From Clostridia bacterium (lineage in GTDB: Bacteria > Bacillota > Clostridia > Christensenellales > CAG-1252), in assembly GCA_017394805.1 (NCBI GenBank), contig JAFPXC010000005.1, positions 1 through 64,000 on the forward strand: 64,000 bases of DNA, written 5' to 3'. The translations under genes were made by a program, and so were the position numbers. The notes beneath the pieces were generated by a model. That model saw only the letters and a program-made list of their open reading frames with translations, had not been told where the DNA came from and searched no databases. Every line of letters starts with the position of its first letter. The first letter of the stretch is position 1. Below are positions 3 through 51,694 of the stretch, one piece after another.

Positions 3-1376
3 TGCACCGATTACGACTTCAAACAGGCGTTGGAAGTCAAAAAGCCCAAGAGTTGGCTCAAAAGCGTGTCGGCGTTTGCCAATACGCTGGGCGGGACTCT
101 CTTTTTCGGTGTGACCAACGATAAAGTCGCCGTCGGCGTCGAGGATCCGCAAAGTCTCGGAGAAAAAATTTCCCAACTCATCAACGAGCGTATCAAACCC
201 ACGCCGATATACGTTCTCGGTAGCTTTATGGAAGACGGCAAAGCCATTGTGACCGTCAAAGTCTATGCCGGCACGTCCACGCCTTACTATTACGTTGCGG
301 ACGGCGTGCAGGAAGCCTATATCCGTAGTGGGAACGAATCCATCATCGCTCCACCGCATATTCTGAACGAATTGGTGTTGAAAGGTCTCAACCAAACCTA
401 CGACACCTTGAAAACCAACTATAAAAAGAGCGACTATTCGTTTACCTTCTTCGAGGCGACTTTCTATGATATTACGCGGACGAAGATCACCGAGAGCGAT
501 TATCTCTCGTTTAACCTCGTGGATAAGGACGGATACTTGACGAACGCCGGCGTATTGCTCGCCGATCAAAACATCTATACGCATAGCCGTATCTTCTGCA
601 CTCGTTGGAACGGACTGACCAAGACGTCTGTTAACGGCGAAGCGGTGGACGATAAAGAAATATCGGGCGGTCTGCTACAACAACTGTTTTCCGCGATGGA
701 GTTTGTCCGCAACAACACCAAGAAGAAATGGCACAAATCGGGTATGACGCGCGTGGAAATGCCCGAGTACGACGAAGAAGCCGTGCGAGAAGCCATCGTC
801 AACGGCATCATTCACAGGGAATATACCCGTCTCGGCGCAGAAGTGTGCGTCGATATCTACGACGACCGTCTCGAAGTCACCTCGCCCGGCTGCATGATGT
901 CCGGCAAGATCATCGACAAAGAAGTGGACGACGTGGTCGCGTCCGAACGCCGCAATCCCGTCCTCGCAGACATCTTCGCCCGTATGAAGTTTATGGAACG
1001 CCGCGGCTCGGGATTGAAGAAGATCACCGACAACACCAACGCCCTCTTCAACGACGGCAAAAACCACGTCGAATTCTTCTCGGACAGGAACTACTTTAAG
1101 GTGACGATCCATAACGCTCTGTATGGTAAAAAACAAAAGGGCGCCAGTGTAAATGCCAATGTAAACGCCGGTGTAAATGCAGGTGTAAAATTGTCTGCAA
1201 CACAAAAAGCAATTATACAGTTAATGCGAGAGAACACCCAAATCACAATAAAAGAAATGGCAAGCGCACTTGGCAAAAATGAGACAACGGTATCTAGGAA
1301 TATAAGCCAACTGAAAGAAGCAGGCGTTGTTAAAAGGGTTGGATCGGATAAAACAGGACATTGGGAATTATATTAA
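3..1376 (+). CDS. AlbA_2 / ATP-binding transcriptional regulator-like protein, 5' partial
   Basis: The frame is already open at the window edge, so the N-terminus is missing; the first in-frame TTG at 30 is not the true start. Seen: an AlbA_2 (Schlafen-like) domain ending in AFANTLGGTLFFGV, then a GHKL-type ATPase region with AIVNGIIHREY as the N box and RRGSGLKKI as the G-rich box, a low-complexity hinge of alternating N/A/G-V units encoded by a 12-nt tandem repeat near 1145-1190, and a C-terminal winged helix (TIKEMASALGKNETTVSRNISQL). This domain order is that of a widespread family usually called putative transcriptional regulators; some members sit in defence islands. It lies 45 bp upstream of the TIR gene on the same strand, but its base composition is closer to the GC-rich core than to that gene. 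Its target is unknown. Confidence 0.85.
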   Translation, partial: CTDYDFKQALEVKKPKSWLKSVSAFANTLGGTLFFGVTNDKVAVGVEDPQSLGEKISQLINERIKPTPIYVLGSFMEDGKAIVTVKVYAGTSTPYYYVADGVQEAYIRSGNESIIAPPHILNELVLKGLNQTYDTLKTNYKKSDYSFTFFEATFYDITRTKITESDYLSFNLVDKDGYLTNAGVLLADQNIYTHSRIFCTRWNGLTKTSVNGEAVDDKEISGGLLQQLFSAMEFVRNNTKKKWHKSGMTRVEMPEYDEEAVREAIVNGIIHREYTRLGAEVCVDIYDDRLEVTSPGCMMSGKIIDKEVDDVVASERRNPVLADIFARMKFMERRGSGLKKITDNTNALFNDGKNHVEFFSDRNYFKVTIHNALYGKKQKGASVNANVNAGVNAGVKLSATQKAIIQLMRENTQITIKEMASALGKNETTVSRNISQLKEAGVVKRVGSDKTGHWELY

Positions 1377-46420: not shown

Positions 46421-46470
46421 ATGTTAGCATATCGAAAATAGCAATGTCAATTCGAAAATAGTAATGTCAT
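46421..46470 (-). promoter_or_regulatory. promoter of the TM2 gene with direct-repeat sites
   Basis: Minus strand: TTGACA (46450-46445), 18-bp spacer, TAACAT (46426-46421). A 19-bp unit (TCGAAAATAG followed by AATGTCA) occurs at 46432-46450 and 46452-46470, in phase at 20 bp, about two helical turns. Confidence 0.55.
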
Positions 46471-46492
46471 TAAATTCTTTTATAAATATTTC

Positions 46493-47287
46493 TTATTCTT
46501 CCCGATACGGTTTGGGCACTTTGCCGTGGTAGGGGGCGTTGGCGATATTCCTCGCCGACAAAAAGACTTTGAGTCGCGTTTTCACGGTGCCCCGCTTTTT
46601 CGACTTGGGCAGCGTCGCCACCGTCTTCACGCGCACGTCGCCTTCGATCGTTCCTATTTTTCGCACCGTTTTCGTTTCGCCGGGCAATAGGTCGAAGAAG
46701 TTGTCCGAGTAGTGTCCTTTCCCCTCGTCTTCTATCATTACCAGCCGTTGATATACGTCCGTATGCAAGGTGATATTGTCGCCGTCCACCGCTATCCGTA
46801 TATCCCCCACGGGCAATTTGAGTTTCTTTTCGGGGCGCAACAGGCAGTTTTTTTGCGCGAGCATAGCGCCGTTCTCATGCAGCCGCACGGCCACGCCCTG
46901 CCGTTTTTCGTCTATCTCGGCGGTCGCCATCTCGGCTACGACCATGTTGCCCAATGGCGGCACCGTGCTTTTACGCAAAAAGGTGGGGGACGTACCCTCC
47001 AAATCGAATACACACCACGCCACGTCCACGGTTTTTGCGTAGGGGTAGTCGTTTATGACGATAAGGCGCACTTTGTCCTTTTCGTCCTCGATGGACGCGG
47101 TGAGGGGCGCGTTGAAGCGCCGCGCCGCGTATTGCAGGGCCTTGTATTCGCCGTAGTAGTCGTAGCTCGACCAGGATGCGGTCGGCCAGCAGTCGTTCAG
47201 TTGCCGGTACGTTGCGCCTGTTTCCGCGCCCTTTGCGCCGCCCGGGCATAGCCTTTTTGTCTTTTCAACGGTATGCTTTAACCACAT
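46493..47287 (-). pseudogene. C-terminal remnant of a GH2 beta-mannosidase
   Basis: 264 codons. From about residue 23 on it matches the end of GH2 beta-mannosidases (YRQLNDCWPTASWSSYDYYG, then KALQYAARRF). The sugar-binding, Ig-like and catalytic barrel domains of the 800-plus-residue enzyme are missing, including the catalytic glutamates. The first 22 residues are unrelated and come from DNA next to the hairpin array, so the break lies at about 47221. Translation of such a fragment is unlikely to matter. It shows that mannoside use was once part of this locus. Confidence 0.75.
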
Positions 47288-47288
47288 C

Positions 47289-47393
47289 CCAAAACTTTGT
47301 TTTGGATTTCACCTTGCCGCCGGCAAGATTTCTCCTGCGTGTAACGCAGATTTCTCCCGTGCAAAGCACGGATTTATTTATCGCTATGCGATA
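47289..47393. repeat. array of five micro-hairpins with constant linkers
   Basis: Five perfect inverted repeats in a row: 47289-47305 (7-bp stem), 47313-47327, 47335-47349, 47357-47371 and 47379-47393 (6-bp stems), each with a 3-nt loop. The stems CCAAAAC, CTTGCC, CTGCGT, CCGTGC and TATCGC are unrelated, while the linkers are ATTTCAC, ATTTCTC, ATTTCTC and ATTTATT (7 nt). The last four units have a period of exactly 22 bp. The right end contains the mscS stop codon, the left end abuts the beta-mannosidase remnant. Confidence 0.85.
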
Positions 47394-48229
47394 GGTTTCT
47401 CCACCACGTTGACGTAGCGATAGGGAATCTCCACGCCCGCTGACAATAGCGCCTCGCGCACGGACACGTTGATTTGGTCGCGCACCTGCTCGGTGCGGCT
47501 GGTGGGCAGGTAGTACACGGTGGTCTGCATGATGAGCGCGCTGTCCGTGAATTGCCAGAAGTACACGTCGCCGTATTGTTCTTCGCCCTGTTTATTCACG
47601 AAGCCGGGCACCGAATATTCGCTGGCCTCCACGGTGTCGTGTATGACCTTCTTGACCATTTCCATATCGCTCTCATATCCCACCGCGAATTGGAATGTGA
47701 TCGAGCGCGTCTTGGTCTTGAAACTGAAGTTGTCCAACCGCATGGCGTTGATGACGTGATTGGGCACGACGTAGCGCAGGGATTCCGCGCCGATCAGCAC
47801 CACGTGGCGCAAGGTCATTTCTTCCACGATGCCCGCCGTACCGTCCTGCAATATGATCCTGTCGCCCACCTCGAAGGGGCGATGGATGCTTATCATGATG
47901 CCCGCCAATATGTCCTTGATGATGTCCTGCGCCGCGAAGGCGATGACCGCACTCACGATGGCCGTACCGCCGAAGATGGTCGTCCACACGGTTTTCACGC
48001 CCGCGAAGGAACTGATCACCAACACGATGAAACCCAACACGATGAGGACGGAGATAAGATGCTGGAAGAACAGCAAATGCAGTCCGCTCCGTGTCTTTTG
48101 AATGCGCTTGAATATGATCTTGTTCAGTTTGGTCAATAAGATGCACACGATGAGCACCGCGAGCACCATCGCCACCCATGCGAGTATATTCCAAGGTTTT
48201 TCCAGTTTATTGATGAAATCCAACAACAT
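47384..48229 (-). CDS. small-conductance mechanosensitive channel MscS family
   Basis: 281 residues. Three N-terminal membrane segments (ILAWVAMVLAVLIVCILL, LISVLIVLGFIVLVISSFA, TIFGGTAIVSAVIAFAAQD), the last being the pore helix with glycine/alanine packing, then the beta domain with HRPFEVGDRIILQDGTAGIVEEM and the C-terminal vestibule. It releases solutes on osmotic downshift. The last codons (EKPIA, stop) are encoded by the first unit of the hairpin array, so the normal C-terminus may have been replaced. Confidence 0.92.
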   Translation of the reverse strand: MLLDFINKLEKPWNILAWVAMVLAVLIVCILLTKLNKIIFKRIQKTRSGLHLLFFQHLISVLIVLGFIVLVISSFAGVKTVWTTIFGGTAIVSAVIAFAAQDIIKDILAGIMISIHRPFEVGDRIILQDGTAGIVEEMTLRHVVLIGAESLRYVVPNHVINAMRLDNFSFKTKTRSITFQFAVGYESDMEMVKKVIHDTVEASEYSVPGFVNKQGEEQYGDVYFWQFTDSALIMQTTVYYLPTSRTEQVRDQINVSVREALLSAGVEIPYRYVNVVEKPIA

Positions 48230-50715: not shown

Positions 50716-50926
50716 TCACTTCAAAGGCACGGCTTATTCCCGCAATATAGTTTACGCGCCGTTCGGCGTAGGGCTCCTTGCACTTCTTGCATTAACGGTC
50801 ATATTATTTATACGCCCTAACCCCCAACTGTCCGCAACAAAAACCCCGCACGACGTTCGTACGGGTTTGTGGCGGGGAAAATGGGATTTGTAATGCTTTG
50901 GTCGTAAGCCCAACAAACGGCTTGCG

Positions 50927-51694
50927 TTATCTCTTTTTGTAGAGTACAAGTTCGGGGTCGGCGCCATTCTCGCCATAGGTACAGATGAGGATAAATTCCA
51001 CGTTGGCCAAAACGCCAAAGCACCGCTTGGCGTCTCCAAGCGACACCAGTTGGGTGCCAAGATAGGTGATGTTGTCGTCGAGGAATTTGACCTTGGCGCC
51101 ACCGGGCAGAGTATACTCTATGTTGACATAGGCACCCACCAAAGCGTGCAGTTTGTCTACCGTGGGCATGCCCTCGATATGCAAGGCGTTGATCTCCTCG
51201 ATCAGTTGCTTCTTGAGCGCCTCGAAACGCCCGCTGTCCCCCAGCGCCTTGTGATTTTTCCAATATTTGAGGTTGGGGAGCACGCCCTTGATATACGTGC
51301 GTGCCTCCTCTCGTGGAAACCCCTCGCCCGCCATGTGCTCGACGCACACGTCGATGAGGTCGTCCATATCATCATAGGTAAACGTGCCGTCGGCATAGCA
51401 CCACTTGCAATACTCCTCGTTGAGGGCGCCGTCACTGTCGCGGCCCAAGATCGAGTCGTCCTCGAGGGGCATGCCACAACATTGACAGATAAGCTTGTGC
51501 GGGGAGCCCAGTAGCGTATTGATGGATACGTCGTAGAGTTTGGAAAGCAAGATGAGCGAGTCGGTGTTAGGCACAGTATCGCCGTTTTCCCATCGAGACA
51601 CAGCCTGCCGCGTCACAAACAGTTTTTCTGCCAGTTCGTCTTGCGACCAACCCATTTTTGTCCTCAATTCGTATAGAATGTCCTTCGTGTCCAT
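50927..51694 (-). CDS. XRE-family regulator with zinc-ribbon domain
   Basis: 255 residues with GGAGG upstream. Residues 5-60 are a Cro/CI helix-turn-helix (WSQDELAEKLFVTRQAVSRW, then YDVSINTLL). Residues 68-125 match the putative zinc-ribbon family PF12674: CQCCGMPL, then EYCKWCYADGTFTYDDM, with C70, C72, C73, C96 and C99. The rest is a mixed alpha/beta domain. It is a probable DNA-binding regulator and lies at the border between core and the defence island; its target is unknown. Confidence 0.85.
   Translation of the reverse strand: MDTKDILYELRTKMGWSQDELAEKLFVTRQAVSRWENGDTVPNTDSLILLSKLYDVSINTLLGSPHKLICQCCGMPLEDDSILGRDSDGALNEEYCKWCYADGTFTYDDMDDLIDVCVEHMAGEGFPREEARTYIKGVLPNLKYWKNHKALGDSGRFEALKKQLIEEINALHIEGMPTVDKLHALVGAYVNIEYTLPGGAKVKFLDDNITYLGTQLVSLGDAKRCFGVLANVEFILICTYGENGADPELVLYKKR

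Follow-up and report, generated by a model that had tools for sequence, protein, structure and literature searches.

What kind of element is the series of small hairpins that closes an mscS-family gene in this Clostridia genome, and how did it come to lie there? Within the window (the whole 64,000-nt stretch of DNA that was analysed), five perfect hairpins stand in series at 47289-47393, and units 2-5 are spaced exactly 22 bp start to start. A sequence-only reading had described these hairpins, with their 3-nt loops, 6-7-bp stems and regular period, and the coordinates, fold z-scores and surrogates bear the description out: the z-score of the array was -5.15 on the plus strand and -4.48 on the minus strand (0/200 shuffles were as stable), and the longest chain of hairpins of at least 6 bp had five members in the window versus one or two in 20 first-order Markov surrogates of the whole window.

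A hairpin array at the end of mscS

The features of the region are as follows (where no strand is given, the feature is strandless).

46493..47287, minus strand: N-terminally truncated beta-mannosidase (GH2) fragment, C-terminal part only (Pfam Ig_mannosidase)
47281..47289, minus strand: distal boundary motif ACCACATCC (sense strand GGATGTGGT), the same motif as at the end of most arrays in the genome
47289..47305: hairpin 1 (distal), CCAAAAC-TTT-GTTTTGG, 7 bp, loop TTT, perfect
47301..47380, minus strand: match to RF01706 (Gut-1), positions 1-77, 36.3 bits, E 9.7e-06, gathering cut-off 50
47306..47312: linker ATTTCAC (sense GTGAAAT), identical to the Gut-1 linker and nearly invariant in 138 units
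47313..47327: hairpin 2, CTTGCC-GCC-GGCAAG, 6 bp, loop GCC, perfect; stem found again elsewhere in the genome
47328..47334: linker ATTTCTC (sense GAGAAAT), from the linker comparison
47335..47349: hairpin 3, CTGCGT-GTA-ACGCAG, 6 bp, perfect; GNA triloop on the plus strand
47350..47356: linker ATTTCTC, from the linker comparison
47357..47371: hairpin 4, CCGTGC-AAA-GCACGG, 6 bp, loop AAA, perfect; stem found again elsewhere in the genome
47372..47378: degenerate linker ATTTATT
47379..47393: hairpin 5 (gene-proximal), TATCGC-TAT-GCGATA, 6 bp, perfect; contains the mscS stop codon, with the layout of the relatives' junction palindromes
47384..48229, minus strand: mscS-family mechanosensitive channel gene, its end supplied by the array (Pfam MS_channel_2nd 44 bits, MS_channel_3rd 28 bits)
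47394..47401, minus strand: linker-like GGTTTCTC, the fifth such stretch, in-frame end of mscS (E-K-P)

The array does supply the last codons of mscS, as had been proposed: its stop codon (minus strand, 47384-47386) falls within hairpin 5, and the last residues, E-K-P, are encoded by the linker-like stretch ahead of it. The mscS orthologues have no array and differ from the window gene after YVNVV; in the window, one arriving array copy may have ended mscS early and given it its last codons. On the other side, the beta-mannosidase gene is a C-terminal fragment (its full-length homologues have 851-872 aa), and the ATG of its ORF comes from the distal boundary motif of the array. Truncation by a breakpoint at the array, as first suggested, holds in part: the gene is indeed cut short, but mannosidase homology picks up again roughly 50-75 nt past the array end, so that the array lies beside the breakpoint and not demonstrably at it. 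A short tandem repeat (TCGAAAATAGCAATGTCA / TCGAAAATAGTAATGTCA) is found between two genes at 46434-46474.

Repeat finding detected no direct-repeat family inside the array, because the stems differ. The statement that they share nothing is correct within the array and fails across the genome, where other arrays again contain CTTGCC/GGCAAG and CCGTGC/GCACGG.

Relation to Gut-1

The array had been offered as a possibly undescribed repeat class, a suggestion that we withdraw, as Rfam family RF01706 (Gut-1) covers it. Gut-1 RNA has three hairpins joined by GUGAAAU linkers and comes from gut bacteria. The minus-strand hairpins of the window follow the same plan, with (G)UGAAAU linkers (GTGAAAT, GAGAAAT) and an alignment over positions 1-77, at a score under the 50-bit gathering cut-off; two other arrays of the same genome exceed that cut-off (C16, 56.9 bits; C33, 58.7 bits). 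Judged by plan and sequence, the window array is thus a member of the Gut-1 class, though this copy falls under the Rfam cut-off, and not a new class.

The catalogue entry treats Gut-1 as a single RNA gene whose stems are fixed and whose only known source is human gut metagenomes (it is listed as "human gut only" in a table of Weinberg et al. 2010, PMC2864571). The arrays seen here differ from that entry: they are multi-copy, vary in unit number and stems, include G[T/A]G linker variants and lie behind stop codons. The pattern GATTTCNC-8..34-GATTTCNC gave 73 matches in this genome, two of which look coding, versus 0 for the reversed control. The genome holds dozens of arrays of three to six hairpins each, with recurring stems in loose order, and most share a common distal end (CCACATCCC/CCACGTCCC). 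A search of related genomes, proposed with the original observation, found similar arrays there too: RF01706 matched in 38 of 151 genomes of the order (26 over the cut-off), with up to ~30 copies per genome, and in none of 14 control genomes over the cut-off. A scan of contigs with the linker pattern was not used as a distribution; among the matches listed, most were chance hits across phyla, together with some uncultured Clostridia MAGs. In our literature search, Gut-1 was the only description of such hairpin arrays that came up. From these comparisons, Gut-1 behaves as a dispersed, lineage-specific hairpin-array element and not as one fixed RNA, which is what is new here.

Several further repeats were seen along the way. 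Sister arrays with linkers GTGATAT, GTTATAT, GTGAATT and GTGAAGT have the same plan (L091, L092, L097 and L299 in genome G002; L008, L014 and L085 in the window's own genome) and some are fused at their ends to arrays with GTGAAAT linkers. In two species, GTTATAT arrays are headed by a 17-18 bp hairpin (GAAAGAAACCCGATTTG vs GAAAGGAACCTGATTTG; L317:491-720 in C33 of the own genome, L309 in G001), in which only two compensated pairs differ between the two species. Genome G003 carries another dispersed repeat, GATTTCTC-GACTACGCTCGAAATGACA-...-GATTTCTC, of ~38-bp period (e.g. G003:C2:51242-51444); the linker-like word GATTTCTC is common to this repeat and the hairpin arrays.

Stem turnover and the folding strand

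Across 138 linker-bounded units the linker (consensus G[T/A]GA[A/T]AT) is nearly invariant, the exception being base 2 (sense G[A/T]G); the same units contain 114 distinct hairpins, and in related species the linker is the same and the stems are others. Pairing is nevertheless kept while the sequence changes, as had been claimed from five hairpins: among 75 distinct units of this genome, the outer five pairs are Watson-Crick in 92.3% of cases, versus a mean of 56.4% and a maximum of 63.7% when the right arms are re-dealt, and all four pair types are in use at pair 4. The same test disfavours stems that differ by drift alone, and the pattern points both to a copying process and to a repeat or mobile-type element, each of which had been raised before.

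The mismatches and loops give a hint as to which nucleic acid folds. G-U and A-C mismatches are equally rare (GT/TG 11 and AC/CA 9, versus 1348 paired), so neither strand carries an RNA wobble signature. Triloops of the type c(GNA)g make up 82/142 on the ATTTC strand versus 3 on the other strand, and the closing pair is C-G in 110 of 116 distinct triloops. Likewise, tetraloops of the type GNNA number 29/57 on the ATTTC strand versus 1 on the other; their third base is A (13), C (8) or T (8) and never G (0), and hence they are not RNA-type GNRA loops. As a point against the reading favoured below, GNA triloops are rarer in this genome (13/28) and in G002 (3/15), and in the window array they account for one of five. 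To our knowledge, no genomic repeat family is built from d(GCGNAGC)-type mini-hairpins. Nearest-neighbour energies did not separate GNA from TNC loops, so the loop argument is based on composition and on published biophysics; energy models omit the extra stability of C-G-closed GNA loops in DNA. Such C-G-closed GNA loops form DNA mini-hairpins of exceptional stability (Hirao 1994 and Yoshizawa 1997, cited in PMC6479982). The arrays resemble the d(GCGNAGC) mini-hairpins of the same source in having C-G-closed GNA triloops, here on one strand, and differ from them in being genomic arrays, whereas the mini-hairpins are known from biophysics and aptamers. Together, the strand bias of the loops and the absent wobble preference point to folding of the antisense DNA strand, in place of the RNA-stability or processing role first entertained.

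Arrival behind stop codons and possible routes of spread

The arrays have a preferred position. In 80 arrays with sufficient flank, the stop codon of an ORF of at least 90 codons, read in the gene sense direction, lies at the 5' end of 37, and a convergent stop lies at the 3' end of only 2. (An earlier gene-context count with a crude ORF caller, giving convergent 12, divergent 8, and tandem 5 and 2, is superseded by this test.) Many arrays are located between a stop codon and an intrinsic terminator. At L261 and L299, convergent gene pairs have an array of their own for each gene, inverted, flanking a shared bidirectional terminator. For nine array-bearing genes, readable orthologues in the same genus are array-free (recA, a trpB-like gene, oadB/pycB, nnrD, recF, a vWA gene, trmL, a HAD gene and thyA), and the stop codon is usually at an unchanged place, which makes the arrays lineage-specific gains. 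A second filled and empty site is seen where G001 (L309) has a GTTATAT array right after CCCCGCCA, behind a gene, and the window orthologue of this gene (50840-50960, minus strand) runs on with no array, in the empty state.

In several relatives, the hairpin on the gene side forms a perfect palindrome, unique and 9-17 bp long, with AGT(G/T)AWAT after it. In 12 of the 17 distinct palindromes that we found, a long ORF has its stop codon there; at random positions a palindrome of this kind occurred in 25 of 18000 cases. In recF, array-free G005 retains CAGTAAC, and G002 reads TGCAGTAACG-agaa-CGTTACTGCA-AGTTATAT. In another case, a G093 gene has the same final residue as its array-free G073 orthologue, and its last ten coding bases have been added to it in inverted form. 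Since array-free orthologues keep the near arm, this arm is the old one where it is formed by coding sequence. The simplest account would be that the gene end was copied by fold-back when the array arrived, giving the junction palindrome. At the window junction the layout is alike but smaller, with 6 bp around the mscS stop codon, and is not decisive; the mscS orthologues are too divergent to show which arm of hairpin 5 is ancestral.

A possible reading, which we favour tentatively and which may well prove wrong, is that the window carries one copy of a dispersed Gut-1-type DNA element which is non-autonomous and which DNA template switching both spreads and keeps palindromic. Copies would arise when DNA synthesis snaps back on the end of the target gene and then jumps, by microhomology, into an existing array, whose linkers and hairpins are copied. 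On the antisense strand, where the GNA mini-hairpins form, later template switching of the quasipalindrome kind would keep or rewrite perfect stems, so that the stems would turn over and the linkers stay. Template switching is known in E. coli to make quasipalindromes more perfect (PMC7202029), and the likeness to our case is that inverted repeats are improved via the nascent strand (PMC7202029); it is known, though, as a point process at existing quasipalindromes and not as a source of constant-linker arrays. The process would account for junctions of the fold-back type, for perfect stems that turn over and for DNA-type loops on the antisense strand. By itself it leaves the invariance of the linkers unexplained, and selection or a recognising enzyme may fit the linkers better. 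A bolder form of the proposal, which we regard as doubtful, is that the arrays are mobile DNA with neither transposase nor reverse transcriptase of their own, carried by replication template switching to gene 3' ends, with the host end copied backwards and the stems rewritten, such that structure and linkers would be inherited and stem sequence would not.

Enzymes were also looked for. The reverse transcriptase domain RVT_1 (PF00078) is absent from G000 (this genome), G002, G005, G112, G136 and G148, all of which bear arrays, which rules out a self-sufficient reverse-transcription route in these six. Y1_Tnp/RAYT (PF01797) is absent from G000, G001, G002, G004 and G005 and, among the genomes checked, present only in G003; RAYT-type transposition is thereby ruled out for this genome and G002.

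Two rival explanations deserve attention. The arrays could be 3'-UTR RNA elements, in which mRNA hairpins with UGAAAU linkers are bound or processed, selected per locus, and protect or terminate transcripts. This would fit their sense orientation behind stop codons, the common position ahead of an intrinsic terminator, which suggests transcription, the nearly invariant linkers, the covarying stems and the modelling of Gut-1 as an sRNA in Rfam; yet the sense strand has no G-U enrichment (11 vs 9), it is the antisense strand that has the stable loop types (82 vs 3), and orthologous genes do without arrays, so that no locus has a conserved function. On these grounds an RNA element seems unlikely. 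We consider it rather unlikely, too, that a REP- or MITE-like element is moved in trans by a transposase recognising folded ssDNA (linker plus hairpin), the junction palindrome being made at integration. REP/BIME and REPIN sequences are short palindromes dispersed in intergenic DNA that probably act as folded ssDNA (PMC3116915, PMC8266576), and our arrays are alike in both respects; their copies are dispersed, lineage-specific and fixed in orientation, the termini CCACATCCC and AGTGAWAT are conserved, and the loops are of DNA type. Against such an element, the Y1/RAYT gene is absent from the five genomes named above (this genome and G002 included) and a candidate enzyme was not found; furthermore, the constant part of the arrays is the linker while the stems vary, unlike the REP stem that the enzyme recognises.

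Neutral decay of an old dispersed repeat, with stems differing by drift alone, would be in keeping with the stem mismatches in about a quarter to a third of units and with the one-sided differences between nearest-neighbour stems (35 one-sided, 17 two-sided; too few changes for a strong claim, so that the covariation evidence is the re-dealing test). The pairing excess over re-dealt arms, the linkers that hardly change while stems and loops vary, and the lineage-specific copies, too young for saturated drift, make it highly improbable. A chance cluster, a terminator array or a CRISPR remnant is scarcely credible. An intrinsic terminator is a G+C-rich hairpin with a T run behind it; a loose terminator scan did call hairpins 2 and 4, on the plus strand only, whose linker tails, ATTTCTC and ATTTATT, contain no real T run. 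Chains of five hairpins are absent from the surrogates, and the same class occurs at dozens of loci in the genome. CRISPR arrays have identical repeats of about 25-40 bp with unique spacers between them, whereas here 7-nt linkers join palindromic units of 15-17 nt; with this repeat/spacer layout absent and no direct-repeat family present, the original dismissal of CRISPR stands.

Altogether, a catalogued "RNA of unknown function" shows the behaviour of a DNA element that is dispersed and common in gut Clostridia. Its array junctions are a readable trace of the mode of landing, so that comparing strains can test directly how the arrays originate. If host enzymes can, by template switching alone, spread and diversify a repeat, this would be a new route by which bacterial repeat families form, and covariation in such repeats would no longer be evidence for a functional RNA.
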